Positions 2,042 through 25,035 of a stretch of 30,499 nucleotides of DNA are shown here, one piece after another (the stretch's first letter is position 1; each line of letters opens with the position of its first letter). The DNA comes from a virus. The notes below the pieces were generated by a model that saw only the letters and a program-made list of their open reading frames with translations, searched no databases and had not been told where the DNA came from. The DNA is taken from positions 1-30,499 of the IMG/VR virus record IMGVR_UViG_3300051212_000126; one strand, 5' to 3'. A program made the translations under genes and the position numbers.

Positions 2042-3633
2042 TGCTTCATTTTTACGATGGTCAGGTAAGACGATACCTGCTTCAAATTATTAGATTGTTA
2101 AGCAATTTTACCGTCAAATATAGTGATGGTACAATCGTACGTGTACCTGTTATGTATGGGGATCCTGATAGACAGGCAGCACATATTGTAAATCAAAATA
2201 GTGAAAATACACTATCCAGTGCTCCAAGAATAGCTGTCTATGTTTCAGATTTAGATTTAGATAGAAGTAGACTAGCAGATGCTAGTTTTGTAGGAAAAAT
2301 TAATATTAGAGAACGCGACATTGATCCAGAATCAAATGTCTATAATAGCAGTCCTGGACAAAGTTTTACAGTAGAACGTCCAATGCCTACACCGTTTACC
2401 CTAACAGTTAAAGTAGATATTTGGAGCACTAGCACAGATCAAAAATTACAAATATTGGAACAAATTTTAACATTTTTTAATCCTAGTCTTGAAATACAAA
2501 CAACAGACAATTATATTGATTGGGCTAGTTTAACTGTGGTTGAATTAGAAGATGTAACATTTACCAGTAGATCTGTTCCTCAAGGGACTAATATTTCTAT
2601 TGATATTGCTACATTAATGTTAAAGACTCCTATCTATCTAAGTCCTCCAGTAAAAGTAAAAAAACTGGGTGTGATTACGCAGATTGTTTCTAATATTTTT
2701 GGAAATTTTAATGGTGATCTGTCTTATGTAGAAGGTCTAGGCATGGATTTAGGTACTGGATCTGTTACATTCTCTGATGTGATTGGAAGAGAAAAAACTA
2801 CCATAGGAGATTTTGATATTCTTGTTGAACAGACAAATATTAAAGTAACTAACAGAGGCACTACTGGTCCATGGCTAAATTGGCTTGTTATATTAGACCA
2901 AAATCCTGGAAAATATCAAGCAGGTCTAAGTAAAATATTTTTATTACAGTCTGATGGTAGTGAAGTAGTCGGTTATCTAAGTTTAAATCCACTTGACGAA
3001 ACCGTTATGGTAGCTAATTGGGACGAAGATACTTTTCCTACTAATGACATGATAGAAGGACCAAGTAGAGCATCTACTAGTTGGGGATCATTTGATGCTA
3101 TAGTTGATCCAACTAAAAATGGCCCTAATGGCTCAGGATTAGAACCTATAGTAGGCACTAGGTATCTTATACTTGAAAGCATAGGTGGCGGTGTGATTGA
3201 TACATTTGTTACCAGCAATAGTTCTAAAAGAATAAACACAGGAATAGAATTTGATCTAGTAGACAGTCATGAGCTGTATATTGACGGAGTTTTTACTTCT
3301 GCTACTGCTAGTGACAACAACGGCATTTATTATCTTACCACTGCTACAGCTATTCCTATTGGTAGCACAGTAACATATAAACTAAATGTAAATCAAGACG
3401 GACCAGATGCCTGGAAAAATGCTGACGATAGTGATTTTATTGCCGATGCTAATGATATAATAGAATGGGATGGTAGTAAATGGCACATAGTTTTTTCAGC
3501 CAAAGAAAGTGCCGATCAGTTGCTTTATCAAACAAATATGTTTACACTTACACAATATAAGTGGAACGGTATAAGTTGGGTAAAATCTTTCGAAGGCGAG
3601 TATAAAAAGGGATCATGGAGAATAGAACTATAG
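2041..3633 (+). CDS. 15: gp15-like tail sheath stabiliser / tail terminator, long form
   Basis: This is a 530-aa protein whose first ~215 residues follow T4 gp15 block by block. RRYLLQIIRLLSNFTVKY and IRVPVMY-like blocks are followed by PRIAVYVSDLDLDR, then PTPFTLTVKVDIWSTSTDQK, then QILEQILTFFNPSLEI, and the last block ends in YLSPP, which matches the MYPPV of T4 gp15. In T4, gp15 forms the hexamer that caps the tail after sheath assembly and binds the neck. T4 gp15 is 272 aa; here residues ~215-530 are an extension containing GKYQAGLSKIFLLQSDGSEV and NDIIEWDGSKWHIVFSA, which I associate with gp15 of marine T4-like phages. The ATG overlaps the stop of the gp14-like gene by one base, and its own end overlaps the Nudix start by 19 bases. 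The identity is strong; the role of the extension is unknown. Confidence 0.82.
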   Translation: MLHFYDGQVRRYLLQIIRLLSNFTVKYSDGTIVRVPVMYGDPDRQAAHIVNQNSENTLSSAPRIAVYVSDLDLDRSRLADASFVGKINIRERDIDPESNVYNSSPGQSFTVERPMPTPFTLTVKVDIWSTSTDQKLQILEQILTFFNPSLEIQTTDNYIDWASLTVVELEDVTFTSRSVPQGTNISIDIATLMLKTPIYLSPPVKVKKLGVITQIVSNIFGNFNGDLSYVEGLGMDLGTGSVTFSDVIGREKTTIGDFDILVEQTNIKVTNRGTTGPWLNWLVILDQNPGKYQAGLSKIFLLQSDGSEVVGYLSLNPLDETVMVANWDEDTFPTNDMIEGPSRASTSWGSFDAIVDPTKNGPNGSGLEPIVGTRYLILESIGGGVIDTFVTSNSSKRINTGIEFDLVDSHELYIDGVFTSATASDNNGIYYLTTATAIPIGSTVTYKLNVNQDGPDAWKNADDSDFIADANDIIEWDGSKWHIVFSAKESADQLLYQTNMFTLTQYKWNGISWVKSFEGEYKKGSWRIEL

Positions 3634-4061
3634 AACTAGTTGATTGCTCTGGTGCGTTGATTTGTGCTAAAAATACTCGCAGGTTTTTATTACTTCAAAA
3701 AAATACTGGGAAACATGCTGGGCACTGGGGACTAGTAGGTGGAACCAATCAAAACGGTGAAACTGCTTGGCAGGGTTTACAACGAGAAATCGAAGAAGAA
3801 CTTGGTTATCTACCAGAAATAAAAAAGACTATACCTTTAGAACGTTTTGTTAGTAATGATAGTATGTTTAACTTTCATACTTTCTTTTGTGTAGTCCCAG
3901 AAGAATTTGTTCCTACCCTAAGTAAAGAACATCAAGCATGGGGCTGGTTTACTGCTGCCGCAGCTCCTAAACCTTTACACAGAGCTTTGGATCTTAGTCT
4001 ACGTAATAAAATTATACAAACTAAGATCCAATCTATCATTGATATTATTGATAGTCTTTAA
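3615..4061 (+). CDS. Nudix hydrolase
   Basis: This 148-aa protein has a complete Nudix box at residues 43-65 (G-x5-E-x7-REU-x-EE-x-GU): G43, E49, R57-E58, E61-E62 and G64 are all present. These residues bind the Mg2+ ions that cleave nucleoside diphosphates linked to another group. The size is normal for a single-domain Nudix enzyme, and the substrate cannot be read from the sequence (dNTP clean-up, ADP-ribose/NAD-type or RNA-cap-type substrates are all possible). The ATG at 3615 follows AAAAGGG, a good ribosome site lying inside the end of the gp15-like gene, so it belongs to the same operon. It ends at the TAA shared with the opposite-strand gene. A hydrolase placed in a structural operon is unusual; see findings. 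Confidence 0.9.
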   Translation: MENRTIELVDCSGALICAKNTRRFLLLQKNTGKHAGHWGLVGGTNQNGETAWQGLQREIEEELGYLPEIKKTIPLERFVSNDSMFNFHTFFCVVPEEFVPTLSKEHQAWGWFTAAAAPKPLHRALDLSLRNKIIQTKIQSIIDIIDSL

Positions 4062-10767: not shown

Positions 10768-11907
10768 TTATCCGCCAAGTGCGATTGCCAGTGCCGCTGC
10801 TGTGGCGTCAACATAATCTTTTCTTGTTGCTTTATTTGGACTAGAAGGAGCATTATTTAAAGTCACTTCGTCCGCTGTTATTGTATCTACTGTTAGGTTA
10901 TTGTTTATCGTTACATTAGTTGCAGTTATAGTTGTAGCATTTATTGTGGTAATATTTCCTGTGGTAATATTTCCTGTAGTACTATTTAATGTAGTAATTG
11001 TGCCTGTGGTACTATTTAAAGTTACCACTGTGCCTGTAGTACTAGATAACGAGGTAGAGTTTATAGTGGTAAACACTGCTGATCTAGGCACAGTACTGCC
11101 AATGGTCATGTTATTGATTGACCCTACTGTGCTAGGATTTATTGTTACAGATCCTGTACCTGTAGGTGAAAAATTTATTACACTGTCATTAGCATTTGCT
11201 GTTATATCTCCAACTACGTCTACATCATTTAAAGATGATAAAATACTAGAATTTAAATTGGTAAATGATCCATTACGAGGAGTAATATTACCAATAACAA
11301 CATTATTAATACTACCTGTGCTACCACTACTGGTAATCGATACAATATTATTTAGAACAGATAAACTAGATCCTACTTGAAGTTCATCTGCATTTACTCT
11401 ATCAACATTTATTATACCGTTGGCCGCTGTAAAACCTGTGGTTTCAAAACCGTACTCTGAATAAAATTTACTTTCCTGTATGGTTTTTGGTATAGCGGCT
11501 GCGTAAGGATTACTGATTGACTCAGCGTAGTTGGCGGAAAATATTACTCTCGTGCCGTCATAAATTACACTGCTTGGATTAGCACGTAGACTAACATAAC
11601 TGTCTGTAACATCTACAGAAAATTCAGCTAGACGAGAGACTGTGCCTATTCTACCATAGTCAACAATATTAACACTATTAGGTGTAGCTACAACTAATAA
11701 GTTTATTGTCTCTTTGGTGTAACTGTCGTATTCTACTGAGATCTGATAGGATACGCTGGAGAAATCGCCTACATACCAACGATCTATTTCTACATCTAAA
11801 CCTAGATAGATTTGTATCCATTGCCCTTTATAGGACCAATTTTTACCCGGTTTTACACGCAGGGTTGAGTGCAGTCCTTGATCAAAAAAGCTGGAAAAGT
11901 TTAACAT
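10768..11907 (-). CDS. Fibre-like virion protein with threonine-rich repeats, 379 aa
   Basis: This 379-aa protein has three visible parts. Residues 1-~135 look like a compact beta domain (NWSYKGQWIQIYLGL, ending VIFSANYAES). Residues ~195-280 contain fibre-type motifs (INNVVIGNITPRNGSFTNLN, then INNMTIGSTVPRSAVFTTIN). Residues 284-335 are short Thr/Asn-rich repeats (TTGTVVTLNS, TTGTITTLNS, TTGNITTGNI). The C-terminus has NKATRKDYVDAT, like the short 'NK-YVD' ends of many phage fibres. The first part plausibly attaches to the virion and the rest forms an elongated trimeric beta shaft; this is inferred from composition. The ATG at 11907 has only a weak ribosome site (GGCAG) that lies inside the 3' arm of a 17-bp hairpin. 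The next gene starts 11 bases after its stop. I do not recognise a named family for the N-terminal domain. Confidence 0.68.
   Translation of the reverse strand: MLNFSSFFDQGLHSTLRVKPGKNWSYKGQWIQIYLGLDVEIDRWYVGDFSSVSYQISVEYDSYTKETINLLVVATPNSVNIVDYGRIGTVSRLAEFSVDVTDSYVSLRANPSSVIYDGTRVIFSANYAESISNPYAAAIPKTIQESKFYSEYGFETTGFTAANGIINVDRVNADELQVGSSLSVLNNIVSITSSGSTGSINNVVIGNITPRNGSFTNLNSSILSSLNDVDVVGDITANANDSVINFSPTGTGSVTINPSTVGSINNMTIGSTVPRSAVFTTINSTSLSSTTGTVVTLNSTTGTITTLNSTTGNITTGNITTINATTITATNVTINNNLTVDTITADEVTLNNAPSSPNKATRKDYVDATAAALAIALGG
10903..11058 (-). repeat. Short coding direct repeats, Thr/Asn-rich
   Basis: Codons 284-335 of the 379-aa gene repeat an ~10-codon unit. At DNA level, blocks such as GTGGTAATATTTCCT (plus strand) occur back to back around 10949-10981. 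The repeat length fits one coil of a beta shaft. Confidence 0.65.
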
Positions 11908-11965: not shown

Positions 11966-13780
11966 TTAATTTAGTATTTTTACTAGTTTTCCGTATTCTG
12001 GTAGAAATAGATACTCAATATCACTGCGTACTAATGTATTAATAGCATCATCTAGAGTTTCTACTAACGGATCTCCACCTAAATTAAAGCTGGTATTAAA
12101 CAAAATAGGAATATTTGTTTTTTCATAAAATGTTTTAATTAGATTGTAGAAATGATAATTTTGCTCTTCTGTAACAGTTTGTATTCTACAGGTGCCATCT
12201 ACATGAATAATGCTGGGTATTTTTTCAGCTATGCCTGGCTGGCAATTTACAGCGTACATCATATGCGGGCTTTCGTCCTTACCTCTAAGATCAAACCACT
12301 CATGCGCATGTTCTTTTAAAATTGTTCCAGCAAAAGGTCTAAAATATTCTCTACGTTTTACTGTATTCACATAGTCTTTGCCATCAGCATAGGTAGGATC
12401 AAATAAGATACTACGATTTCCAAGTGCTCTAGGACCGTTTTCACTGCGGCCTTGAAAAATAGTTACAATATTTTTCTTTGTTAGCAGTTCTACTACATCT
12501 TTATATGTAGCATCAACAACTTCTCCACCGGCATACCCAACTTTTTCTAAAATTTCTTTGTCGGTATACGTTTGCTTAGGGCCAAGATATAGCGTGTCTA
12601 GTTTTTGTATTTCTGAATTTTTAGTTACATCATGCCAAAATAGCAGTGCTGCTCCCATTGCTGTACCAGCATCATTACTTATAGGCTCAACATAAATTTC
12701 TATACCTTCGTTTTTAAGCTGATCCAAGTACCAATAATTAGCTACACAATTCAAACCATAGCCGCCGCTTATTACCACACGTTTTTTACCACTCATCTCT
12801 ACAGCTTTACGAATCAAACGTAACACTTGTTCCTGAGTTTGTGTTTGTACTGCGTAGGCTAAATCTCTACGGCTTTGTAGATAGGTAACATCTGGATTGT
12901 CATCCGACGATCTTTCATCTAAAAAGTCAAACAGTTCAGCATTAACTTTTGCTCCGTTTGGATAGTTAGGCACAATAAGATTTCTATTGCTTAATGGAAT
13001 CTTAGAACTATGATCAAACAGTCTAGGAATACTAGTATTTTCTTTACCGTAAGGAAATAGACCCATGGTCTTACCTGCTTCAATGCTACTGAAGCCGCAG
13101 TATTCTGTTACGCCTTCATATACCTTAACAATACCAGCACGATCTGTTAAGTGTGCTTCGTGAAATTGTCCAGGTTCACCAAAATTATCAGACTCTAAAT
13201 GACTCCAATAAATGCCTGGCACTGGTTCTAGTGTGCCGTAGTGCTTGTATAGTGTTTTAAAATTAGCTGGATATTCACAATCTACAATACTTTCAACTTC
13301 CCAGATAGTCATGGGATCGTTGCCATATTGTATTTGAATAAATGTGCCTGCTCCGTCTACAATTAAACTTACAGCATCAGTCCATCCGCTGCGATAAAAT
13401 GCGCAGGCACTATGAAGTTTATGATGCATATAACTAAAATCTACGACTTGAGGATGATTATGTAAGTTAGCTCTGCGATCAATTAAATTTAATTTACGTG
13501 CCAAACCAGTATAAACATCGTCGCCGGTATAATCTACTCGGCCAGCTGTAGATTGTAGGGCTTGAGTGTGCGCGACTACAAGATAATCAATTTTATCCGT
13601 GTATTCTAAAATTTTCATCATACTAGCATAAGGACCGCCATCGTATTTCTGTCTAGTAAGTCTTTCTTCTTCTATGCTAAAAATAATTTCACCATCTTTG
13701 AGCAAGCATACTCCTGCATTGTGACCTCTAGCTATAGCAGCAATCCAACCAGTTTTTAAATTTACTGTCTCTGTTGTCAT
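11966..13780 (-). CDS. NodU/CmcH-family O-carbamoyltransferase
   Basis: This 604-aa protein has the full two-domain layout of the NodU/CmcH/TobZ carbamoyltransferases. The N-terminal Kae1-like half has RGHNAGVCLLKDGEI (H20) and SIEEERLTRQK at ~35-45, the conserved HHKLH at 119-123 (the metal-binding-type histidines of this fold), and VDGAGTF at 141-147. The C-terminal half has GRSENGPRALGNRSILFDP at ~444-462, FRPFAGTIL at ~479-487, and ILFNTSFNLGGDPLV at 559-573, all family hallmarks. These enzymes move a carbamoyl group from carbamoyl phosphate, using ATP, onto a hydroxyl, usually of a sugar. The ATG overlaps the stop of the glycosyltransferase gene (ATGA), so the two are translationally coupled and probably act on the same glycan. 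Relatives occur in marine T4-like phages. The acceptor is unknown. Confidence 0.92.
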   Translation of the reverse strand: MTTETVNLKTGWIAAIARGHNAGVCLLKDGEIIFSIEEERLTRQKYDGGPYASMMKILEYTDKIDYLVVAHTQALQSTAGRVDYTGDDVYTGLARKLNLIDRRANLHNHPQVVDFSYMHHKLHSACAFYRSGWTDAVSLIVDGAGTFIQIQYGNDPMTIWEVESIVDCEYPANFKTLYKHYGTLEPVPGIYWSHLESDNFGEPGQFHEAHLTDRAGIVKVYEGVTEYCGFSSIEAGKTMGLFPYGKENTSIPRLFDHSSKIPLSNRNLIVPNYPNGAKVNAELFDFLDERSSDDNPDVTYLQSRRDLAYAVQTQTQEQVLRLIRKAVEMSGKKRVVISGGYGLNCVANYWYLDQLKNEGIEIYVEPISNDAGTAMGAALLFWHDVTKNSEIQKLDTLYLGPKQTYTDKEILEKVGYAGGEVVDATYKDVVELLTKKNIVTIFQGRSENGPRALGNRSILFDPTYADGKDYVNTVKRREYFRPFAGTILKEHAHEWFDLRGKDESPHMMYAVNCQPGIAEKIPSIIHVDGTCRIQTVTEEQNYHFYNLIKTFYEKTNIPILFNTSFNLGGDPLVETLDDAINTLVRSDIEYLFLPEYGKLVKILN

Positions 13781-14715
13781 TTTTCTATTTTTCCTAAAAT
13801 TGTATTGATTACGTAGTCGTGAATCTCAGGACTCATACTCATTATATGTTCGTGCTTGCGATCAACTCGCTCGTCTGGCGCTATTCTAATAGGGCTATAT
13901 TCTCTGGTTTCTTCACCCATATCTAGAATATTAAATGTACTTACATTAGGATATGAAACATTAATAGGATAAGTTGCCCCAAAGACTACTGTGGCAGGTT
14001 TATTCATAGCATAGGCTAAATGCTGTCCTACGCTATCGCAGCCAAAGAAATGATCAGCATATTTTATAATTGCTGCCCACTGTCTTAACCCTACATTTTC
14101 TGGCGCTGCTACATCATCTTTATATTTTTCTTCTCGCAGATCCAATTTAATTTCGCTCATCATTATCACAGCGTAGCCATGTTCTTGTAGTTTTCTAATT
14201 AATACCTTTATATCTTTATACTCTATACTTCTGCTAGTAGGATCTACGAAACTTTCATCAATATACTGTATACCTCTACCAAAGGGTTGGAATACAATAG
14301 CTTTGTCTTTTTTTAAAGTTTTTTTAATTTCTGTAACTACTTGTCTGCCATGTAGTAGTTCTTCTTTTGACAGCATTAAATTTGGTTTAGCTAATTCTCT
14401 AATGCCTTTTTGATTTATTTCGATATCAAATGCTTGTGCTAGACTACACTTTTGATTGTAATATTCCCACACTCTATAAGGCTCTGGACTGACTACATCC
14501 CTATCACGAATCTTTTCTTTGAATAAATTTTTGTGCCAAACATCGTAAGTTCTGTCGTCTAGTGTAGGATGTCCTTTGAATAAATCAGTTCCGCCTTCGC
14601 ATACTATGATAAAATCTTTATCGCCCGATTCTTGTTCGTAGTGTTCCAGCGCAGGAATTGCGCAAATGACACGGCCTGCGCCACCGTTAATAAAAAAAGC
14701 TTTGGATCTAGCCAT
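13777..14715 (-). CDS. Glycosyltransferase, GT9 (heptosyltransferase-like)
   Basis: This 312-aa protein resembles the GT9 (ADP-heptose:LPS heptosyltransferase) fold, a two-domain GT-B enzyme. The N-terminus has FINGGAGRVICAIPALEHY at 8-26, corresponding to the Gly-rich acceptor-side loop followed by the I-P-AL helix. In the C-terminal half, AIVFQPFGRG (139-148) starts the second domain. ADHFFGCDSVGQHLAYAMNK (220-239, D227 and H232) followed by PATVVFGATYP is the nucleotide-sugar-site signature (D-x-G/V-x-x-HLA-A-x-x-KP...FG-T). The size fits. The ATG at 14715 follows GAGGAAC. The gene sits just after a hairpin/terminator and overlaps the carbamoyltransferase by 4 bases. The likely role is adding a sugar that is then carbamoylated, on a virion or host-surface glycan; that is inference. 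The sugar donor need not be ADP-heptose. Confidence 0.75.
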   Translation of the reverse strand: MARSKAFFINGGAGRVICAIPALEHYEQESGDKDFIIVCEGGTDLFKGHPTLDDRTYDVWHKNLFKEKIRDRDVVSPEPYRVWEYYNQKCSLAQAFDIEINQKGIRELAKPNLMLSKEELLHGRQVVTEIKKTLKKDKAIVFQPFGRGIQYIDESFVDPTSRSIEYKDIKVLIRKLQEHGYAVIMMSEIKLDLREEKYKDDVAAPENVGLRQWAAIIKYADHFFGCDSVGQHLAYAMNKPATVVFGATYPINVSYPNVSTFNILDMGEETREYSPIRIAPDERVDRKHEHIMSMSPEIHDYVINTILGKIEK

Positions 14716-14791: not shown

Positions 14792-15421
14792 TTAATATAC
14801 TTTTGGAGGATTACTTGGGAATGGAATTTTCCAATGATCTACATTGGCATAAGTTGTTTCTAAATTAGCCAGCCAATCTCTGTGTTGTTCTAACTCTTGT
14901 CTTTCTTGATCTGTATAATCATTATCTGCTAAAGATCGATTTATCATTGTAACGCTGTTGGCTACACCTGAAAATAAGCTTTCTCTTAATATAGCATGTT
15001 CTCTAAATCTTGGAGTTGTAAATGCTCCGTCGCGATAGAATAAATCTTGTCCAAAATAGTTTTGTGAGATTCCTCCACCAGAATATACATAAGTCCAAGT
15101 TTCGCCTGTTGGCAGTGTTTCTGTGTAATCTGGTATTGGATCGTGAGTGTAGTACCCTGTTAGATATGCTGCTTCAAAGGTATTAACACTGGCATCTAAT
15201 ACTACAAATTCTGTGTCAGGATCATCGTCAACTAAATTAGCAAGTTGTAAATCTGCCTCTGTTTCTCCTGCTCTTGCTACATAACGAATTTCGCCCGTTG
15301 GTGTAAACACACACAGAACTAATAATTTTGGTCCTTCGTAAATAGCATCCACTGTCTTATTCAAAGCAGTGGTTGTTTTATAAGGCTCATCTGAAAGCTT
15401 GAACGTAAAAAATTTACGCAT
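14792..15421 (-). CDS. Possible tail-fibre assembly chaperone, 209 aa
   Basis: This 209-aa protein starts at 15421 behind a strong ribosome site (TAGGAG). The N-terminal half is beta-type with no clear motif (LLVLCVFTPTGEIRYVARAG). The C-terminal ~45 residues contain DYTDQERQELEQHRDWLANL and then a hydrophobic-Pro ending, IPFPSNP. That matches the general pattern of fibre-assembly proteins (Tfa/gp38-type and related chaperones): acidic-E-R/L, a short helix with W/Y and L, then a 'W/FP-x-P' ending. Its position directly after three fibre-like genes fits, since such chaperones usually follow the fibre gene they serve. It is the last gene before a terminator. The assignment rests on a short motif and position. 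It could instead be a small structural protein. Confidence 0.4.
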   Translation of the reverse strand: MRKFFTFKLSDEPYKTTTALNKTVDAIYEGPKLLVLCVFTPTGEIRYVARAGETEADLQLANLVDDDPDTEFVVLDASVNTFEAAYLTGYYTHDPIPDYTETLPTGETWTYVYSGGGISQNYFGQDLFYRDGAFTTPRFREHAILRESLFSGVANSVTMINRSLADNDYTDQERQELEQHRDWLANLETTYANVDHWKIPFPSNPPKVY

Positions 15422-15432
15422 TTATACTCCTA

Positions 15433-16425
15433 TCAACTAAAGAATCTAATTTTAACAGCACCCTGACCGCCGCGATATCCATTATCTCTAACATCACCGC
15501 ACAATGCTATACCTGGGCCACCCCAACCGTATGGAACATATGGTATACATCCGGTTGATTCATAACAAGCGCAGATACGATCTGAACGCCATGAATAACC
15601 GTGAGGAGCACCTTTTGTTCCATTACGACTAGTACTTAGTCCTGATATAAATCCATGTAGTCCCTGTCCTGGAATAGGAGCTTCTGTAGCATCGTCAGTA
15701 AAATTATAACTGATATAAGGAGTATTACCGCAGCTCCATACGCCTGCTGGTCCTGGAACATGTACAACATAGCAGCAACGACCGCTACTAGTAGGACATT
15801 GACAGCTAAATGTAACACAGCTAACACCACCACAGCAGTTTTGATCACCGCCTACTGCAGTAGCAATTAATGTTTGAGTAGTGCCAATATTACAAATGGT
15901 TCCAGCGCCTTGTCCTAATCCATTATTTGTACCACAATAGCCTAGTGCTCTATAGCAACAATATCCACCACAGTTACCATCAGTAGCACAAATACTACAA
16001 CCGCCACGGCCACCCTGTGCGCAGATACACCCGTTAGTGCCATTACCAAACCAGCAAATACAAGTGGCTTCTGAACAACCTCTAAAATTTAACACGTCGG
16101 CATTGCCGCAGCTAAAACCAATAACTCCAGTAACATAACAACCAGCAGTTACACAAATACATTTACGAGAAAAAGCACCAGCATTTCCTGGTAAACCCCA
16201 GCCGCAGCAGCACATACGAGCACTGCTTCCACCTGCGCCCCATACTTCAATAACAGCACAGCCTGTGCCTGGCGCACGCCAACAAAACCCACCACAAAAG
16301 TTAGTTCTTACATTACCTGGTGAAAATACAAAAATTTGACCTTTTTCTAAGTTGGTTTCAGAAATATCTCCTGTCCAATTACTATTAGATCTTTGTTTTA
16401 CTAAATTTGTTAAATTAGTTGGCAT
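15433..16425 (-). CDS. Cysteine- and glycine-rich fibre-like protein, copy 3 of 3 (330 aa)
   Basis: This 330-aa protein has 34 cysteines by my count (~10 %), far above any neighbour. It begins MPTNLTNLVKQ and has LEKGQIFVFSPGNVR at ~27, then IEVWGAGGSSARMCCCGWG at ~59, the 'W-GAGG' start typical of glycine-rich domains in phage adhesins. After that come CWFGNGTNGCICAQGGRGG, GGDQNCCGGVSCV, ICACYESTGCIPY-P and a GGQGAVKIRF end. Its two upstream neighbours are clear paralogues with the same cysteine frame. The ATG shares a base with the previous stop (TAATG) and has only a weak ribosome site, so it is probably translated by coupling. A host-contact tip or adhesin is a reasonable guess. Whether the cysteines form disulfides or bind metal is not known. 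I know of no characterised homologue. Confidence 0.72.
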   Translation of the reverse strand: MPTNLTNLVKQRSNSNWTGDISETNLEKGQIFVFSPGNVRTNFCGGFCWRAPGTGCAVIEVWGAGGSSARMCCCGWGLPGNAGAFSRKCICVTAGCYVTGVIGFSCGNADVLNFRGCSEATCICWFGNGTNGCICAQGGRGGCSICATDGNCGGYCCYRALGYCGTNNGLGQGAGTICNIGTTQTLIATAVGGDQNCCGGVSCVTFSCQCPTSSGRCCYVVHVPGPAGVWSCGNTPYISYNFTDDATEAPIPGQGLHGFISGLSTSRNGTKGAPHGYSWRSDRICACYESTGCIPYVPYGWGGPGIALCGDVRDNGYRGGQGAVKIRFFS

Positions 16426-17420
16426 TATGCTGTACTCGCAATAAATTTAATTCTTATAGCGCCTGGGCCGCCACGTGTGCCATGATCTCTTACATTCACA
16501 CATGGACTTGGTGCCATGCCTGGGAATCCTGGTGGATGCCACGCAATACATCCTTGTGCTTCATAACATCCACAGCTACGACCGCCTGTCCAGCACTTGC
16601 TTTCTGTTGGAATACCCTGACCTGGATTTCTACCAGCTACATTTAGCGCATGAGTATATTGCATTAGACCCTGACCTGACCAGTTACTATATTCATTATC
16701 ATTTTCAGTGCCAAACTGTAACATGGCGCCGCAATCACTAAAATAGCCTGCTGGACCTTGTACAAAGTATACCTGACTGCACACGCAGTTTGGTAGACAC
16801 CCATAAAAGCCTGCGCAACTGAATCTTCCAAAACAGTTTACATCACCGCCATAGGCCTGCGCACAACAACTAGCAATGGTTACGCCGTTAGCACCTGCGC
16901 CAAAATTACAAATTACACCACAATTACTATTAATTAGTGTACCGCAATAACCGTAATAAAAATAACAACAGAATAAACTAGTACCAGTAGAGCACATACT
17001 TGCGCCTCCACGGCCGCCTTGAGAGCAGATACAGCCCGTAGTACCGTTACCAAACCAACACACTCCTGTTGGTTCGCTACATCCTCTAAAGCACAGAGCA
17101 TCAGCATTGCCGCAAGCCAATCCTACACAGCCTGTAATAGTACATCCTTGTCTAACACAAAAACACTTACGAGCATAGGCACCAGCATTACCTGGAATAC
17201 CGCCACCGCAGCAGCACATACGAGCACCGCTGCCACCAGCTCCCCATACTTCTAAAACCACACAACCGCAGCAAGGTGCTTGCCAGCAAACACAGCAATA
17301 CTGTTTGGTTCTAACATTCGGCTCAGAAAACATCCAGATTTTACCCTGTTCAAGATTTTCTTCGTCGAAAAAAGATTGAACTAATCTGTCTCTTACTAAT
17401 GATGTAAATGATGTAGGCAT
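16425..17420 (-). CDS. Cysteine- and glycine-rich fibre-like protein, copy 2 of 3 (331 aa)
   Basis: This 331-aa protein has 38 cysteines by my count (~11.5 %). It starts MPTSFTSLVRD, has an acidic helix-like segment FFDEENLEQGKIWMFSEPNV, then CVCWQAPCCGC and LEVWGAGGSGARMCCCGGG. The shared frame continues with CFRGCSEPTGVCWFGNGTTG, ICSQGGRGGASMCSTG, GGDVNCFGRFSCAG, VQGPAGYFSDCG, CGCYEAQGCIAWHPPG and GGPGAIRIKF. It is closer to copy 3 in length than to copy 1. Three bases separate it from the stop of copy 1, and its own stop overlaps the start of copy 3. The conserved VRD-G-xGG-GA-xIKF end probably packs the last beta strand. The function is inferred as part of a host-binding fibre tip. Confidence 0.72.
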   Translation of the reverse strand: MPTSFTSLVRDRLVQSFFDEENLEQGKIWMFSEPNVRTKQYCCVCWQAPCCGCVVLEVWGAGGSGARMCCCGGGIPGNAGAYARKCFCVRQGCTITGCVGLACGNADALCFRGCSEPTGVCWFGNGTTGCICSQGGRGGASMCSTGTSLFCCYFYYGYCGTLINSNCGVICNFGAGANGVTIASCCAQAYGGDVNCFGRFSCAGFYGCLPNCVCSQVYFVQGPAGYFSDCGAMLQFGTENDNEYSNWSGQGLMQYTHALNVAGRNPGQGIPTESKCWTGGRSCGCYEAQGCIAWHPPGFPGMAPSPCVNVRDHGTRGGPGAIRIKFIASTA

Positions 17421-17423
17421 TAA

Positions 17424-18650
17424 TTAACTCGCAATAAACTTAATTCTAACTGCGGCATTACCGCCTTTACCGCCTTGATCGCGCACACCTGCTTCAAATA
17501 CAGCGTTGTGACCACCATGCCCTGGAGGCACATAAGCATAACATCCTGAATCTTCATAGCAGCCGCAGCCACCACCAAAGCCCCAACAGTATGCCCAAGG
17601 TATACCTTGACTTGGATTACGACTAACAGCACTGACCATAAAGTTATGTTGATGGCGACCTTGACCGCTGTAGTTACTAAATTCGTTATTATATTCGTGT
17701 GCTACGGCTAAGACCACACCGTCTCTGCTATACATACCAGCAGGTCCTGGAATATAAGAAGTTGTACAGCAAGCAGAGTTAGCATTACAAGCCATAAACG
17801 CTACACAGCTAAAATGTCCGCAACAGTTTACATCGCCGCCAAAGCTTCTAGCAATATGTGGTTGTGGACCTGTACGATAGTTTCCTCCGCACATTTCAGC
17901 TACGCAACATGCTGATCCCCAACAGTTAGCATAGCAACATTGTGGTTGTATATAACTTGGTGTACATCCACACATGTATACACAGTGCGAGTTTTGTACG
18001 TTACAGATTAATCCACAGTTTTCATTATTAAACTTTGTTCCGCAGAACCATTGGCAGGTAAAGCAGCACCAAGCACTTTCACCTGTGCTACACATACTTA
18101 CACCGCCACGCCCGCCTTGAGCGCACAAGCAGCCATCAAACTGTGTATGACATTGATATTTAAAGCAGCAACCGCTACAAGCAATACCTTGTCCGCCTGC
18201 GCCATAACTATTAAGAACGGCTTCAGGTAATAAGTTTAATGGATTAGGATTTTGTGCGCCGCATAGTCCAACAGAATAACACACCTGAGAAGGACCAGAG
18301 CAACCTCTAAAGCATAAATTACTGTCTCTACAAGCGTTATGTGCTACACCGCATACAAACGTACAGCAGGTTTGTTTAGCACTGATACAAAATATTTTTC
18401 TATTATAAGCGCCGGCATTGCCTGGTAATCCAAATCCGCAGCAGCACATACGAGCGCCGCTACCGCCTGCGCCCCACATGTCAATAATTACTATACCTGC
18501 TGTTCCGGTAGGTGGGCACCAGCAAAAACAATTTGGTGTAAGATTGGTATTAGGCTGATAAGCCCAGATACGTCCTTTTTCCAAATGGAATTCACCAGGA
18601 TTCAGATTTTCTGATTTAGTTCCTACCAGTGATTTAAATGATGTTGGCAT
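17424..18650 (-). CDS. Cysteine- and glycine-rich fibre-like protein, copy 1 of 3 (408 aa)
   Basis: This 408-aa protein has 47 cysteines by my count (~11.5 %). It starts MPTSFKSLVGT with an AGGATA-type ribosome site. It shares LEKGRIWAYQPN, IDMWGAGGSGARMCCCGFG, LCAQGGRGGVSMCSTG, GGDVNCCGHFSCV, IPGPAGMYSRDG, GCGCYEDSGCYAYVPPG and a GNAAVRIKFIAS end with the two genes after it. It is ~77 residues longer because of two extra cysteine-rich stretches, around CGAQNPNPLNLLPEAVLNSY and around CVYMCGCTPSYIQPQCCYAN. It is the first gene of the trio, preceded by two small beta proteins. Tandem duplication with later loop growth or loss explains the set. No signal peptide is present, so folding would start in the reducing cytoplasm. 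Confidence 0.72.
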   Translation of the reverse strand: MPTSFKSLVGTKSENLNPGEFHLEKGRIWAYQPNTNLTPNCFCWCPPTGTAGIVIIDMWGAGGSGARMCCCGFGLPGNAGAYNRKIFCISAKQTCCTFVCGVAHNACRDSNLCFRGCSGPSQVCYSVGLCGAQNPNPLNLLPEAVLNSYGAGGQGIACSGCCFKYQCHTQFDGCLCAQGGRGGVSMCSTGESAWCCFTCQWFCGTKFNNENCGLICNVQNSHCVYMCGCTPSYIQPQCCYANCWGSACCVAEMCGGNYRTGPQPHIARSFGGDVNCCGHFSCVAFMACNANSACCTTSYIPGPAGMYSRDGVVLAVAHEYNNEFSNYSGQGRHQHNFMVSAVSRNPSQGIPWAYCWGFGGGCGCYEDSGCYAYVPPGHGGHNAVFEAGVRDQGGKGGNAAVRIKFIAS

Positions 18651-18668: not shown

Positions 18669-19001
18669 TTACGCAGACGCAACTACCCAGCCGTATGTAG
18701 CACCGCTGTAAATTAATGTTACTATTGCACCGTTGGTGTCTATGGTTAGATCGTCAGTGATATTCTGAATTTTCGCTCCATTTCTAGCTACAGTAATATT
18801 ATTTGTTGCCGCTGTAGCTCCAATATCAATAATTTGAATAGTATCGTTAACAAGAAGTCCGCCACTAGCCGGCAAAGTAATTGTGATTGCTCCGCCAGAA
18901 GTAGTTGCTAAAATTCTGTCATTGACTGCTGCGTTATAGTTAGTAGAGACCTCACGGAATGTTGCTCCTGCTGTGCCGGTTGTTGTGATATATCTTCCCA
19001 T
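18669..19001 (-). CDS. Small beta-rich virion protein, 110 aa
   Basis: This 110-aa protein has a GGGG-type ribosome site before the ATG at 19001. The sequence is all short beta strands: NYNAAVNDRILATTSGGAIT, then ITLPASGGLLVNDTIQIIDI, then NNITVARNGAKIQN, then IVTLIYSGATYGWVVAS. This pattern (DRI-A-TSGG-TITLP, V-D-IQI-D, NNITV-RNG-I, Y-GW-V) is common as a C-terminal or stand-alone domain in phage fibre and decoration proteins. It sits between the 106-aa protein and the cysteine-rich trio, so a fibre or baseplate accessory role is likely. No catalytic residues are seen. A CATAAATA sequence overlaps the end of the preceding gene but is probably too close to the start to act as its promoter. 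Confidence 0.62.
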   Translation of the reverse strand: MGRYITTTGTAGATFREVSTNYNAAVNDRILATTSGGAITITLPASGGLLVNDTIQIIDIGATAATNNITVARNGAKIQNITDDLTIDTNGAIVTLIYSGATYGWVVASA

Positions 19002-19022: not shown

Positions 19023-19343
19023 TTATGTTGTTGATGTTTCAATTCCGTATACCACTGCGCTGACATTAGGTATAGACGACCAAATTACTACATTTCTTGT
19101 TGCTTCTAAAACAATACCTGTACGCTCTAATACACCTTTTGACAATAATTCAGTGTCATATTCTATATATTCAGCACTAGTAGGAGTTCCGGTAGCAGAC
19201 AATCCAATTCTGATATTAGCTGCTTGATTAGATCTATTACACACACTGATAGTCACTACCGAAAAAGTACTGGCAGGCACTGTGTACACTGTGGTTAGTG
19301 TGGCTACTGTAAGGTCATTTGCGCCTAATCTTCCTGATGCCAT
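19023..19343 (-). CDS. Small beta-sandwich-like virion protein, 106 aa
   Basis: This 106-aa protein has its ATG at 19343 after AAGGAAAT. It contains TTVYTVPASTFSVVTISVCN, then IRIGLSATGTPTSAEYIEYD, then RTGIVLEATRNVVIWSS and a last strand AVVYGIE. The strand pattern looks like that of the 109-aa protein at 29198-29527 (RFTVIGCNIANV, AYYIRGIVV, LILAEQCGLRIVSD, VVVSYAEI), so the two may be distant relatives. I associate such small proteins with the structural clusters of marine T4-like phages, but I cannot assign a specific position in the virion. It lies 16 bases after the 1891-aa fibre gene and 21 bases before the 110-aa gene, in one run of minus-strand genes. Confidence 0.6.
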   Translation of the reverse strand: MASGRLGANDLTVATLTTVYTVPASTFSVVTISVCNRSNQAANIRIGLSATGTPTSAEYIEYDTELLSKGVLERTGIVLEATRNVVIWSSIPNVSAVVYGIETSTT

Positions 19344-19359
19344 TTATATTTCCTTTGTA

Positions 19360-22300
19360 TTAACGGAACAAATTGTACGCCAGTGCGTAACCATCTATGC
19401 CGTCGTTGAAATTCATCGTAGTATTTATGTTAATTTGTGCGCCTGTGGTTGTTGTAATTGTGTCTCCAGCAATATAAACAATACCAGCTGTGAGACTATT
19501 TACATTCAAACTGCTAGATCCGCTACCAATTTGAGCACTAATATAGGCCTTGATTGCTCTCTGCGTTGGCACAATACTATCGGAATCCGCCGTAAAATAC
19601 GGATCTGTACTAAATTCAGAAATTGTAGCTCCGCTGCCTCCTAGTGCCACACTACCCAACTGTAATTCTTGTAGACCTGCGATACTGAATGCCTCAGCGT
19701 TCAAACTAGCAATACCTGTGCTTTGTTCTACACTAAAAATGTCGCCCACTCTGAAATTACCATCTTGGTCTGTTGATGTATAGAATACACGACCACCGCC
19801 AAATTCGTTTGTTTCTTTGGTAGGATCTGGATCAATTAAAGGATTTCCTGGATAATTTGTGTTGGCAAAATTACCTGTACCAATATCTAGGAAATCATGA
19901 CCTGTCAATCGTACTTGACTGTAACGGATTCTGATAGTAATATTGGTTTCATGATCAGCACTTTCTGCCATGCCCCAACCTGGACTAATCTGTAGAATAG
20001 CCGTATATCTGTCGCCTTGAGCTAATAAATTTGTTACATTTACTAATTTGTAATATACATCATTAATACCACTAAATTGTACATTAGATCCAGCTCTAGG
20101 AATAGCAGTTAGATTTTTAACAGCTATAAATGTACCAGTCTGGTAAGTGTCAATAGTACCATTACCAACCACCGAAGCTTGGGCTGTTTCATAGCCTGTG
20201 CCTCTATTACTAAAATTAGGTTGTGCTAGTACACCGTCACCTTTACGTACTTCGGTAACCGCCTCTGCTGTGTTATTAGGATCTACAATAGTCATCGCAG
20301 GCGCACTGGTATATCCTGATCCTGGCTCAATTACTCTTATACTGTTAATTTTTTCATCTGCTACTAATGCTCTGGCATAGGTAGTACAACCTGTAACCGT
20401 ACTGCTAGCTACAGTGCCAGCAGCGCCACTTTGTACAGCAGACCAAATTCCTGATTTATTACTATTACCAAAAGCTATAGCACTGTAGCCGTTAGCACTG
20501 GCGCTCATTGTTCTGCTAGTCCAATTGAATCCATCTTCTGATGTAGCGGCTGCGGTTGATTGACTTACCGCGAAGAACAGACCTTGCCCATAACTTACTT
20601 CTGTATATGTAGCACTTGGTACTGTCATTGTACTCCATGTAGTCCCGTTTAGGCTGTACACTCCTGTGGTTAATGTACCACCTGCTGGCACTGCTACAAA
20701 TTTATTTTTACCAAATACTACGTTTGACCAGTTTCCGCTGGTAATAGTTCTTGTAGTCCAGCTGGTGCCGTTACTAGAACTAGCTGCTGTAGTGCCGCTG
20801 CTGGCTACTGCTACCCATAATCCGTTACCGTAGGCTACACCGGTCCAACTAGCACTTGGTAAACCAGACATAGCTATCCAACTCACACCATTGTTTGTGC
20901 TGTAAGCTGCTGTGGTAGTAGTACCTACCATTACCCAACGATTATTACCATAGGCAATATTAGTATAAGTTCCTGCTGGAGCACTGCCCCCCGCACTCCA
21001 TGTTGTTCCGCCATCTGTGCTGATTGAAGTAGTTCCTGTGCTGCTCATAGCAATCCAGGTGCCGTTACCATAGGCAACTTTTATAGCACTGACATTTACT
21101 GTGCCGCCAGCAGTCCAAGTAATACCATCACTACTATAGCTACTAGTTGTACCTGCCACTGCTACAAATCTACCGCCTGCTGCTGTGCCAGTGATCTCAA
21201 ATGTGTTTACTCCACCAGCAACTACTTTAGTTACTTTAACAGTAATATTGTTAGCAGGCGCAAGTCCGCCTACGTTTGTTCCTAGAATTGTAATTGTATC
21301 GTCTATTAAGTAGCCAGTTCCAGGTGTGGTACAGGTTACAGTTGTATAGTAACTACCTGCTTTTACCACAGTAAACACCGCGCCAGCGCCTGATCCTCCG
21401 GTGCTAGCTACACCGGTATAAGTAGAATTTAAATCACCAAATTCTGAATCAACCCAAGCTGCGTTTTGTATTGTTCTTGCTGTAGAAGTAAATCCTGGAC
21501 TGGTAAATGTTAATCTTGGTTCAATTATATAAGCTGTAGTAACATCTAAAGTGCTAGCTATAGTTGTACCCGCATTAATATGATCCCATCCACTGGCACC
21601 TGTAGATTCTTGATAAATTGTAGCGACTTTGCTGCCGCTGTTATAACTTTGAATGTAACCGTATTGTCCAATACCAGTACCAGCAGTAATTAATATTCTC
21701 ATGCCGACGTAGGCACTGCTAATTGCTGTATCTGTGGCTGCTAGAGTAATGCTTGTAGTATTTCCTGATTGTGCTGTATTAGATATAGTTTTATATCCAG
21801 CACCACCTGTGCCGCTAGAATCTCCAAAGTCTTTTAATCTAATATAGTATACGCCGTCGTCTCTAAATTCAGCTGTTGCTGCAGCATTAGCACCAGGGCC
21901 GTTAAATGTATAAGTGGCTGTGCTATAATTTATACCGGCATTAGCAAATTCTAATCTATAAATTTGATTTACTGTGTCAGTAAACACTGCTTCTATACTA
22001 GCTTCAACACTTCTATTGTCTACTTTACCTAACACAGGCGTTTCAGTTACATCAATTCCTTCACTTACACAACCAAATGAGCCGTAAGAGCTATTTCCAT
22101 TTGTAGCACGAATTTTTCCGCCATTTTCAGCAAGATAGCCAATATGGCCATAATATGAGAACACACTAACAAGCTCAGCACGACCCAGATTAGTAACCCA
22201 TGCGCCAATACCGTCGCTTAATACTTGAGTGAAATCGTTCGCTACAATACTATCATTGCCGCCATTGTGTAGATTACCATCTACTTTCATACCAATACAA

Positions 22301-25035
22301 GCCGTACCAAATGTAGTAACGTTTTGAACATAAGGACTGCGCTGTGTGATCCATACACGCTCGTCATCTGGGCCCCAACCTGGATCTAGGCTAGCATAAG
22401 CTCCAGCACTTGGGCGTCTTGTACCATATACATTTAATGATCCTAATGTGCCGGTTAATCCTGCTACTGTACAATTTCGTAAACCTGTTCCATTTCTTAG
22501 ATAGAACATATCTTTATCAATAGATCCATTAACAGCATGAACGTATAATCTAGCTGCTACAATTGTTTTGTAATTGCTATTATAGATAATGTCCCATTTA
22601 ATAGCATCTACATATTCTCTAATATCTCTCTTACAAGCATCTTCATCGTAAGTTCCTGCGTATGCTGGATAAGTTACATTAATATATGCGACTGCTTCCT
22701 CTGCTAAAAATTCTTTATTTTCTTCAAGCACATTTACAGCATTATAATAATTTTGATCTGTACTGATATAATTTGTGCCAGTCATTGTAGGAGCAGTACC
22801 TACTGAATTTACATAATAATCGATATAATTTTTAGCTGTGGTAAATCTGTTTGCCACTACACTGCCTGCTCCGGCACTACCTGCTGGTCTGGTTGTAACT
22901 GGATCAAGCGGATTACCAGCACTTTTTGTAATTGCAATATTTTGAACAATATTACTTACAATGGCTGCTATTCTTGTAAGAGCAGCTAAACTATAGGTAA
23001 CATCGCCAGGAGAAACCAAACTTCCGGCTGGTTCAATCCTTGTACTGCGTAATTCATCGCCTACAATAGCAGTTAGTGATGGAACAGATATTGGAAGCAC
23101 TTCATAGAAAGTACCCGTTTTAACACTTATAGTATAATTTACTTGCTGTAATTCAAAAACAGTAGTACTATCTTCAACAGCATTAATTGCCGCTGTCAAT
23201 GTATTAATTAGAGATGTAACTAAGGTATTTGTCTCAGTTTCTGGATCTTTAGTTGCGTCAGTTACTCTAGTTACTACACCTTGAAATGGTGTAATTGAAT
23301 CTTCTGCTATAATGTCTTGCATTAATGACAGCGCAAAATTTACAGCAGCTATAGTTTGTAATTTTTCTCCCGCACCAAAGACTGCTATTTCTTCGCCATT
23401 ATAGATAGCAAAATCTCTTACCTTTTTATTACCACCATGACTTAAATCATATACTATAGCATCAATTAATACACCAATGTCTCTTTCAGCTTTAGCAGCA
23501 TTATAAGTAAAGCCGCCAGTAAAAGGAGCTATTGGACCTGCTACTTGCGCATTAATCCATGCTATTACTTCTTTTTGTATAAACTGTCTATTTCTAGAAA
23601 TTAAATTTGTAGCATTGGGATATAAAAGTCCTTTTTCAATCTGCTGGGTTGCAAACTGAATAGTTTTAAAAGGTCTATCAATACTTGGACCATAATTAGG
23701 CCACGCTGAATCTACTCCACTAGGAGCTACATACACTATACAATTAATAATACCCCAATATGCCCATTCAGGAGCAGCAGAAGCACTAACTTTTAAGACT
23801 TGTCCTTCGGCTCCAATAGGTAATCTAGTCGGCCCTGCTCCGCCGTAATAAACTAAATCACCTTGTGTGGTAAGTACACTTAATTCAGAGCCTGCTGTAA
23901 ATACATTCCAATATGTACCAACTGTATCGTTATCAGGTCTTGTAGGTGTTGATGAAGTATGATCTAATATACAAATATAACTGTTTGGACCATATTTTAC
24001 TAGATCACCTAAAACATAAAGTTTATTTCCATCCCACAGTCCTCTCCAAGCCGTTCCAGAGTTAAGTTGTGCCCAATATGTAGTGTTAGGAGGAATATTC
24101 GCTCCGCTGGCTTCTGCGTCTGCAACAGCTACATAGGTAAAACCACCGTGTCTTACAACATTACCTACTCTATAAAAATTAGGTGTTCCCCAAGATCCTT
24201 GATATTTGAAACCAGTTATGTATAGGTCCCAATCGTCGCTATTACTTGTGGGAACTTGATTAGTATTATTTGTTTTGCTGATGTAGACGTAACCGCCATA
24301 GGCAATGGTGTCGCCTGGTTGATACACAGCACTAGCGTTCCATGTATCATTAAATTCTAAGCCTTCTACAAACTGGCTCCAATTAGACTCTGCGAAAGTA
24401 CCGCTACTAGTATGATATGTAGTACAAATCCAAAGTCCTGCTCCGTATTTTACCACATCGTTAATTTTATATCTTACACTAGATCCACTCCACGAGCCTA
24501 AATATTCAATACCTTTATGTAAGAAATCCCATTTAGCTTGATCAGCTTCTAGGCCTAACGCGGCAGTAGCAGCACTGGTGTGATGTAAATTACAAATATA
24601 TGTAATACCACCGTATTTTACGATATCGTTTACTTTGTATCTTGTGCTTACAGTCCAGTCAGTTTTCCAGTCAAAAGTTTCAGCAAATAAATCCCATTTG
24701 CTTTGATCGGCTTCTAATCCCGAAGACGCGGTGGCAGCACTGGTATGACTATCATTACAAATATAGATATACCCACCGTATTTTACAATATCATTTAATT
24801 TATAAAATGTGGTTGTTGACCAATTGCCCTTCCATTCTTGGCCGTCAGACATCTGGTTCCATCTTGTAGGAATATTTTCTAAATCAGTATTAAAATCAGC
24901 AGAAGCAGTGTGCCCAATTACGCAGATATACGTTTTTCCGCCATAGCGAATTACATCGTCTTTGATATAAGTTGTGCTGGTTGCCCACGCACCCTTCCAT
25001 ACAAATCTAATTCTACCTAGGTTAAACTCAGCCAT
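19360..25035 (-). CDS. Giant modular tail-fibre protein, 1891 aa, with beta-propeller insert
   Basis: This 1891-aa protein is a paralogue of the 1232-aa protein before it. In order: seven ~50-residue carbohydrate-binding-like repeats at ~12-380 (W-G-W, Y-xxxDIVKYGG-Y-C, HTS, then W); a QGDLVYYGG-RLPIG linker at ~391-412; a split beta-helix-like core at ~430-1000 (VGDELRST, GMKVDGNLHNGGNDSIVAND, HIGYLAENGGKIRATNGNSS), interrupted at ~468-628 and ~672-840 by helical modules like those of the 2232-aa protein; one GD/LGG-type beta module at ~1215-1280; six Asp-box-like repeats at ~1288-1545 (S-DGITW, STDGGTTW, NNGVSW and so on); and a C-terminal part with LTGHDFLDIGTGNF, FYTSTDQDGNFRVGD and VPTQRAIKAYIS. 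The ATG at 25035 follows CGGAGC, and a CATAAATA box lies upstream. It is probably a host-contacting long fibre; no enzyme site is seen. Confidence 0.75.
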   Translation of the reverse strand: MAEFNLGRIRFVWKGAWATSTTYIKDDVIRYGGKTYICVIGHTASADFNTDLENIPTRWNQMSDGQEWKGNWSTTTFYKLNDIVKYGGYIYICNDSHTSAATASSGLEADQSKWDLFAETFDWKTDWTVSTRYKVNDIVKYGGITYICNLHHTSAATAALGLEADQAKWDFLHKGIEYLGSWSGSSVRYKINDVVKYGAGLWICTTYHTSSGTFAESNWSQFVEGLEFNDTWNASAVYQPGDTIAYGGYVYISKTNNTNQVPTSNSDDWDLYITGFKYQGSWGTPNFYRVGNVVRHGGFTYVAVADAEASGANIPPNTTYWAQLNSGTAWRGLWDGNKLYVLGDLVKYGPNSYICILDHTSSTPTRPDNDTVGTYWNVFTAGSELSVLTTQGDLVYYGGAGPTRLPIGAEGQVLKVSASAAPEWAYWGIINCIVYVAPSGVDSAWPNYGPSIDRPFKTIQFATQQIEKGLLYPNATNLISRNRQFIQKEVIAWINAQVAGPIAPFTGGFTYNAAKAERDIGVLIDAIVYDLSHGGNKKVRDFAIYNGEEIAVFGAGEKLQTIAAVNFALSLMQDIIAEDSITPFQGVVTRVTDATKDPETETNTLVTSLINTLTAAINAVEDSTTVFELQQVNYTISVKTGTFYEVLPISVPSLTAIVGDELRSTRIEPAGSLVSPGDVTYSLAALTRIAAIVSNIVQNIAITKSAGNPLDPVTTRPAGSAGAGSVVANRFTTAKNYIDYYVNSVGTAPTMTGTNYISTDQNYYNAVNVLEENKEFLAEEAVAYINVTYPAYAGTYDEDACKRDIREYVDAIKWDIIYNSNYKTIVAARLYVHAVNGSIDKDMFYLRNGTGLRNCTVAGLTGTLGSLNVYGTRRPSAGAYASLDPGWGPDDERVWITQRSPYVQNVTTFGTACIGMKVDGNLHNGGNDSIVANDFTQVLSDGIGAWVTNLGRAELVSVFSYYGHIGYLAENGGKIRATNGNSSYGSFGCVSEGIDVTETPVLGKVDNRSVEASIEAVFTDTVNQIYRLEFANAGINYSTATYTFNGPGANAAATAEFRDDGVYYIRLKDFGDSSGTGGAGYKTISNTAQSGNTTSITLAATDTAISSAYVGMRILITAGTGIGQYGYIQSYNSGSKVATIYQESTGASGWDHINAGTTIASTLDVTTAYIIEPRLTFTSPGFTSTARTIQNAAWVDSEFGDLNSTYTGVASTGGSGAGAVFTVVKAGSYYTTVTCTTPGTGYLIDDTITILGTNVGGLAPANNITVKVTKVVAGGVNTFEITGTAAGGRFVAVAGTTSSYSSDGITWTAGGTVNVSAIKVAYGNGTWIAMSSTGTTSISTDGGTTWSAGGSAPAGTYTNIAYGNNRWVMVGTTTTAAYSTNNGVSWIAMSGLPSASWTGVAYGNGLWVAVASSGTTAASSSNGTSWTTRTITSGNWSNVVFGKNKFVAVPAGGTLTTGVYSLNGTTWSTMTVPSATYTEVSYGQGLFFAVSQSTAAATSEDGFNWTSRTMSASANGYSAIAFGNSNKSGIWSAVQSGAAGTVASSTVTGCTTYARALVADEKINSIRVIEPGSGYTSAPAMTIVDPNNTAEAVTEVRKGDGVLAQPNFSNRGTGYETAQASVVGNGTIDTYQTGTFIAVKNLTAIPRAGSNVQFSGINDVYYKLVNVTNLLAQGDRYTAILQISPGWGMAESADHETNITIRIRYSQVRLTGHDFLDIGTGNFANTNYPGNPLIDPDPTKETNEFGGGRVFYTSTDQDGNFRVGDIFSVEQSTGIASLNAEAFSIAGLQELQLGSVALGGSGATISEFSTDPYFTADSDSIVPTQRAIKAYISAQIGSGSSSLNVNSLTAGIVYIAGDTITTTTGAQININTTMNFNDGIDGYALAYNLFR
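20356..21480 (-). repeat. Asp-box (BNR-like) beta-propeller insert with beta module
   Basis: Codons ~1186-1560 of the 1891-aa gene have no counterpart in the 1232-aa paralogue. They hold one GD/LGG beta module and six ~42-residue repeats, each with an AYGNG-W-AV strand pair and an S-x-DG-x-x-W turn. Confidence 0.7.
22516..23634 (-). repeat. Two helical modules inserted in the beta-helix core of the 1891-aa protein
   Basis: Codons ~468-628 (RNRQFIQKEVIAWI, KAERDIGVLIDAIVYDL) and ~672-840 (EENKEFLAEEAVAYI, ACKRDIREYVDAI) resemble the module repeated in the 2232-aa protein. Both are absent from the 1232-aa paralogue, where the flanking sequence is continuous. Confidence 0.65.
23896..25002 (-). 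repeat. Seven carbohydrate-binding-like repeats, 1891-aa protein
   Basis: Codons ~12-380 encode seven units of the type W-G-W-(x)-Y-xx-DIVKYGG-xYIC-HTS. Aromatic residues at fixed places resemble small chitin/cellulose-binding (CBM5/12-like) modules. The fold is inferred. Confidence 0.7.

Follow-up and report, generated by a model that had tools for sequence, protein, structure and literature searches.

The window analysed here is a 30.5-kb IMG/VR virus record (IMGVR_UViG_3300051212_000126, analysed over its full 30,499 nucleotides), nearly all of which is filled by tail-fibre genes of a T4-like myovirus. Among these genes are three adjacent ones whose products are rich in cysteine (Table 1). 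The initial annotation of this stretch had described them as open reading frames (ORFs) of 330, 331 and 408 residues containing 34, 38 and 47 cysteines, and its coordinates, lengths and counts were all exact. Its view that they are tandem paralogues with a common motif frame was also borne out, as their pairwise identity is 43–49% and all three contain the motifs WGAGGS..ARMCCCG, C.CxQGGRGG, GGD.NC.G and C.CYE..GC and an RIKF end. The remaining window proteins contain 0–2% cysteine, in agreement with the description of the neighbours as nearly cysteine-free. Homologous tips were found in a first set of 174 related loci. The cysteine-richness of the tips is not due to chance, because the 483 homologous ORFs in these first 174 loci contain approximately 5–12% cysteine (none below 3%) and 11 cysteine columns are invariant, with several more conserved at 99% or above, in 95 non-redundant tip sequences.

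The three genes are part of a module with the order large fibre, 106-residue protein, 110-residue protein, three cysteine-rich tips, chaperone, glycosyltransferase (GT) and carbamoyltransferase. Over 100 viral loci share this order. The module was also seen in the cultured phages S-CAM1, S-CAM3, S-SSM7, Sf-FS3 and P-SSM2. The GT was present in 136 of 143 trio loci with downstream room, the remaining seven being split loci. The chaperone belongs to phrog_9740, whose S-SSM7 member scored above the cut-off of the Pfam family Phage_tail_APC (PF16778) and matched several tail-fibre-assembly PHROGs, indicating that a dedicated fibre chaperone adjoins the tips, as in phage Pam3.

Table 1. Predicted genes of the fibre-tip module in the window
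Predicted product	Coordinates	Strand	Length (aa)	Cysteines	Evidence and remarks
Cysteine-rich fibre-tip paralogue, copy 1	17424..18650	-	408	47 (11.5%)	phrog_4205 E 3.8e-15; copy-1 clades orthologous by position
Cysteine-rich fibre-tip paralogue, copy 2 (modelled protein)	16425..17420	-	331	38 (11.5%)	AlphaFold2 model; Pam3 fibre match
Cysteine-rich fibre-tip paralogue, copy 3	15433..16425	-	330	34 (10.3%)	
Tail-fibre assembly chaperone	14792..15421	-	209		phrog_9740 E 2.2e-8
GT9-fold glycosyltransferase, putative ADP-heptose-dependent heptosyltransferase	13777..14715	-	312		PF01075 above cut-off; AlphaFold2 model
NodU/TobZ-type carbamoyltransferase	11966..13780	-	604		PF16861 E 9.9e-58; PF02543 E 7.9e-27
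Tail/fibre accessory protein, kept in module	18669..19001	-	110		tail PHROGs; module order
Tail-fibre accessory protein, kept in module	19023..19343	-	106		phrog_11338 tail fibre E 4e-11
Large tail-fibre protein, upstream of tips	19360..25035	-	1891		phrog_9851 tail fibre E 3.7e-193
Fibre-like protein, downstream of carbamoyltransferase	10768..11907	-	379		partial homologues at same place in relatives

The monomer structure of copy 2 was predicted with AlphaFold2 from a 95-sequence alignment (predicted local distance difference test, pLDDT, 83.5; predicted template modelling score 0.83). Its best match among solved structures was the fibre of cyanophage Pam3 (7ypx; Z 15.2, root-mean-square deviation 3.2, 195 residues), followed by the Bxb1 tail tip (Z 11.7) and the glycine-rich domain of ALK/LTK (Z about 9), so that the model has the TNF-like plus glycine-rich fold of Pam3 gp24. 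When the window tips themselves were compared with Pfam, no family was found at E ≤ 1 and the cut-off of Gly_rich_2 (PF21722) was not reached. Nearly full-length Gly_rich_2 matches above the gathering cut-off of 24.3 bits were obtained with relatives from S-CAM3 (33.9), Sf-FS3 (27.1) and S-SSM7 (26.4 and 24.9), and profile–profile comparison joined the window family to these relatives with a probability of 99.4%. Searches of PDB sequences with the tips gave chance eIF4E matches or none. Judging from the modelled fold, these relatives and the neighbouring fibre and chaperone genes, the three proteins are very probably tips of tail fibres with a TNF-like and glycine-rich fold, as the initial annotation had anticipated in calling them glycine-rich phage adhesins. 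Of its narrower comparison with T-even gp38-type adhesins, the glycine-rich adhesin character was supported; the closest solved relative is the Pam3 fibre, and S16 gp38, a type with a beta-helix attachment domain and a three-layer glycine-rich lattice, was not among the fold matches listed for copy 2, an absence that does not amount to exclusion.

Close relatives of the window tips are present in viral contigs. In a tblastn search of the phage collection, the window tips gave no match at 1e-5 and only weak S-CAM1 matches at E ≤ 10. The link to cultured phages was walked stepwise from S-CAM1 to S-CAM3, the single-cell virus AG-345-F15 and then P-SSM2, S-SSM7 and Sf-FS3. The relatives in Prochlorococcus phage P-SSM2 are PSSM2_304 and PSSM2_306, with 36 cysteines each; S-SSM7 and Sf-FS3 are Synechococcus phages. 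One of 12 related records carries psbA, which does not establish a cyanobacterial host for the window phage. Our literature searches, limited to open-licence papers, found no account of these cysteine-rich tips, in agreement with the earlier statement that no system of this kind has been characterised. The published virion proteomes that we located are those of S-SM1, S-PM2 and Syn9 (PMC3037559), none of which is among the tip-bearing relatives found here.

The two enzymes encoded after the chaperone, of which the initial annotation makes no mention, were identified by profile and fold comparison. The GT matched PF01075 with 28.4 bits against a cut-off of 22, and its AlphaFold2 model (pLDDT 95.9) was closest to the GT9 structure 3tov (Z 23.5), WaaF (21.0), the protein heptosyltransferase TibC (19.9) and WaaC (19.6); unrelated enzymes scored about 11, except for a chloroplast NDH subunit at 18–19. 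ADP-heptose is its putative donor. Both the Carbam_trans_N and Carbam_trans_C domains were found in the carbamoyltransferase, which matched the NodU model (E 5.8e-41) with a score that falls short of that model's equivalog cut-off. Genes of the ADP-heptose rfaE type (rfaE_dom_II matches), which bear on the donor indirectly, were detected in 11 of the 13 genomes of this kind; one match exceeded the curated cut-off. In P-SSM2, S-CAM1 and locus L415 these genes adjoin the module. Heptose-pathway genes of cyanophages may serve fibre decoration rather than host lipopolysaccharide (LPS). Carbamoyl-heptose is found in Pseudomonas LPS. In P-SSM2 (L014:9001-17538, P-SSM2_304 to 313), the heptose-pathway genes directly follow the tips, GT and carbamoyltransferase.

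In phages AG-345-P14 and AG-345-O18, the GT and carbamoyltransferase stand beside cysteine-rich proteins unlike the tip family. The extent of this association was assessed in 163 GT loci, obtained by two scans of viral contigs with GT profiles, a cysteine-rich neighbour being an ORF with at least 5% cysteine within 4.5 kb of the GT. Such an ORF was present in 113 of the 163 loci, and in 58 the most cysteine-rich one lay outside the trio family. The non-trio ORFs fell into 35 sequence clusters, a few of which still look glycine-rich and one of which, a small cluster, resembles an unrelated zinc-type protein. Fibre proteins with 5–13% cysteine beside GT homologues included RCC1 propellers, S74-chaperoned repeats and proteins of 1,400 residues; at L318 and L271 they consist of helical or simple repeats with cysteine in nearly every repeat. 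As a control we used 64 Syn9-type loci, whose tips have the same fold and which contain neither GT nor carbamoyltransferase. The median cysteine content of their 104 tips was 0.38%, and one of 870 ORFs exceeded 5%. The comparison with this control gave a Fisher p of 1.7e-23, an optimistic value because the loci are not all independent. Among loci that contain both GT and carbamoyltransferase and have room upstream, 63 of 73 had a cysteine-rich neighbour once near-copies were removed, versus 1 of 64 control loci. When GT homologues were sought in bacterial genomes, only contigs of metagenome-assembled genomes were found, and the three that were read carry the same phage-like module. At the level of sequence, cysteine-richness tracks the enzymes across unrelated fibre proteins, independent of fold, and we regard a functional link to the GT/carbamoyltransferase pair as likely.

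Some of these neighbours have uncommon architectures. At L241:4857-6152 and L243:5850-6635, RCC1-repeat proteins with cysteine-dense loops (8.6–8.8% cysteine) adjoin a GT9 homologue, and the occurrence of RCC1-type propellers as what appear to be phage fibre proteins is itself unusual. Long AIG-repeat fibres, in which cysteine sites exchange with Ser, Gly, Thr and Asn, were seen at L230:3-6290, L228:2-3118 and L250:641-4609, those at L230 and L250 ending in Peptidase_S74.

The enzymes could nevertheless act on host LPS or on fibre residues other than cysteine, perhaps as a block to superinfection, with the cysteines representing a separate trait such as thiol–receptor chemistry; the enzymes would then share the fibre module since both are host-range genes. 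That the GT matches LPS heptosyltransferase models, that sugar genes but no cysteine-rich fibres surround some GT loci and that phage carbamoyltransferases also occur away from fibres all fit this explanation. However, it does not account for an association as specific and fold-independent as that between cysteine-rich fibres and the enzyme pair described above, and we consider it unlikely.

If the cysteines are the substrate of a single enzyme pair, cysteine-richness would be expected to accompany that pair in proteins of unrelated fold, as observed. Each tip has a short helix at its N-terminus, then a TNF-like beta-sandwich and, distally, a glycine-rich part. We propose that the three proteins are the receptor-binding tips of a myovirus tail fibre, with folding probably aided by the chaperone encoded alongside. 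The cysteines would mainly be acceptors for covalent modification by the adjacent enzymes: the GT9 enzyme would attach a sugar to cysteine, with heptose donated by ADP-heptose as the most likely candidate, and/or the carbamoyltransferase would carbamoylate this sugar or the thiol itself, so that the tip becomes decorated. We infer that the tips are present in virions and bind the receptor, that cysteine is the acceptor and that the sugar is most likely heptose. Thiol-directed modification as the reason for the cysteines is a tentative proposal, to which we give somewhat less than an even chance. More tentative still is its general form, a cysteine coat of phages in which fibres of almost any fold are seeded with cysteine and the phage-encoded GT9 enzyme and carbamoyltransferase make an S-linked, probably carbamoylated heptose array displayed by the receptor-binding tips.

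Several observations weigh against thiol modification. Some GT loci with room have no cysteine-rich neighbour, most of the rfaE matches fall short of the curated cut-off, and no sequon was found around the cysteines. No residue of the globular tips is better conserved than cysteine (81% retained, against a mean identity of 48%), and 15 of the 38 cysteines of copy 2 lie in predicted strands, which is more like a structural role. The literature also yielded no experimental or mass-spectrometric proteomic record of tip modification. The initial annotation had suggested a disulfide-locked or metal-loaded tip. In this alternative, dense disulfides within or between chains, or thiolate–metal sites, would lock the tip outside the reducing cytoplasm, and the enzymes would decorate other residues. 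The strong cysteine conservation, with its invariant and nearly invariant columns, agrees with this suggestion, as does the enrichment of CC and CCC clusters. In contrast, odd cysteine counts are as frequent as even ones in the tips (49/46 and 74/60), as in the other cysteine-rich families, although inter-chain bonds could permit odd counts; CxxC is depleted, and variable cysteine columns are gained and lost without clear pair coupling, tree-based covariation having few informative pairs. No DsbA match was found in 14 genomes; a search for Evr1/Alr had no working positive control. A structural role also leaves unexplained why unrelated folds, such as helical repeats and propeller loops, are cysteine-rich only beside this GT. 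A structural explanation is a serious alternative that we consider somewhat less probable than modification, and structural and modification roles may coexist. On the side of modification we count, besides the parity, the CxxC depletion, the CC and CCC enrichment, the TibC-like GT9 fold and the rfaE genes, a shift in composition: at 0.4% cysteine, Ser makes up 13.9% and Gly 25%, and at 9.8% cysteine these values are 7.7% and 16%. In repeat-type fibres, moreover, cysteine exchanges freely, mainly with Ser, Thr, Gly and Asn.

The tips occur in threes. Three were found in 145 of 174 loci, most exceptions being cuts at contig ends, and in nearly every long record, whereas P-SSM2 contains two. A tree of 138 tips placed the window-type trios in one starred clade and the S-SSM7-type trios in a second, both of which include copies 1, 2 and 3. 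Position-specific subclades were seen within both clades, and some lineages appear separately tripled or homogenised, suggesting that the tips were apparently tripled more than once. Repeated arrival at three tips supports a heterotrimer without proving it; we propose that the three paralogues probably co-assemble as a heterotrimeric tip, an arrangement that we moderately favour. Loci with a single tip were considered as a counter-example and rejected, since two further copies lie elsewhere on those contigs; in all three cases read, the single tip stands beside a fibre and the other two copies, with chaperone, GT and carbamoyltransferase, are elsewhere on the contig. This split of the trio into one and two copies over two fibre regions of one genome was seen in the pairs L068/L174, L051/L175 and L088/L176, and in L176 the frame of the third tip copy is lost.

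Known systems share parts of this arrangement. The Pam3 tail fibre gp24, which has the chaperone gp25, is a homotrimer made from one gene, and its glycine-rich domain is conventional (PDB 7YPX; PMC9608196). It is the best fold match of copy 2, whereas the window has three paralogues with about 10% cysteine plus a GT and a carbamoyltransferase. Tip genes of the Syn9 gp38/gp39 type (Kyanoviridae) encode the same fold by structure search and also lie beside fibre genes, but have 0.4% cysteine and neither enzyme in 64 loci. TibC, a bacterial autotransporter heptosyltransferase (BAHT), hyperglycosylates an adhesin on serine and carries both an N-terminal extension and a four-cysteine iron finger (PMC4358343). 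The window GT has a similar GT9-like fold, but the 312-residue phage enzyme aligns with TibC only from residue 92 on; it lacks the extension and finger, its four cysteines being scattered. Sugars on cysteine thiols occur in the S-linked glycopeptides known as glycocins (sublancin, glycocin F); these, however, are small bacteriocins, and their transferase is not of the GT9 type. For carbamoylation of a cysteine thiol, HypF/HypE offer a precedent that involves a relative of the NodU/TobZ carbamoyltransferases; they act on a single C-terminal cysteine in hydrogenase maturation.

Further genes were noted. In the split-layout phages, a 286-residue protein (LGCSFSNYAWPTWADMLG) is encoded between GT and carbamoyltransferase (L174:6057-6917, L175:7158-8018, L176:4946-5806). 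It has no Pfam or NCBIfam match and may be another modifying enzyme. In Sf-FS3, a gene with the annotation prolyl-4-hydroxylase-type 2-oxoglutarate oxygenase lies between chaperone and GT (L016:8588-9220), and S-SSM7 has a gene of similar size there. In the window, a NUDIX hydrolase gene (3615-4061, plus strand) stands at the convergent end of two plus-strand structural genes and overlaps the end of a gene for a 2232-residue fibre by a few bases.

Few viruses are as abundant as the marine T4-like phages, and host recognition by their fibres is little known; the tips of the cultured phages are all annotated as hypothetical, even in model phages such as P-SSM2. Three paralogues held at exactly three predict a heterotrimeric fibre tip. 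If the cysteines form disulfides or metal sites, the tips would contain an unusually dense thiol network for a virus fibre. If they are modified, they would show that receptor-binding surfaces can be built in a new way, by decoration rather than mutation, and would give a function to phage heptose and carbamoyltransferase genes as well as a new enzyme for placing sugar on thiols. A cysteine coat of this kind would, to our knowledge, provide the first example of S-glycosylation on a structural protein of a virus and, in its transferase, the first cysteine-directed GT9 enzyme.

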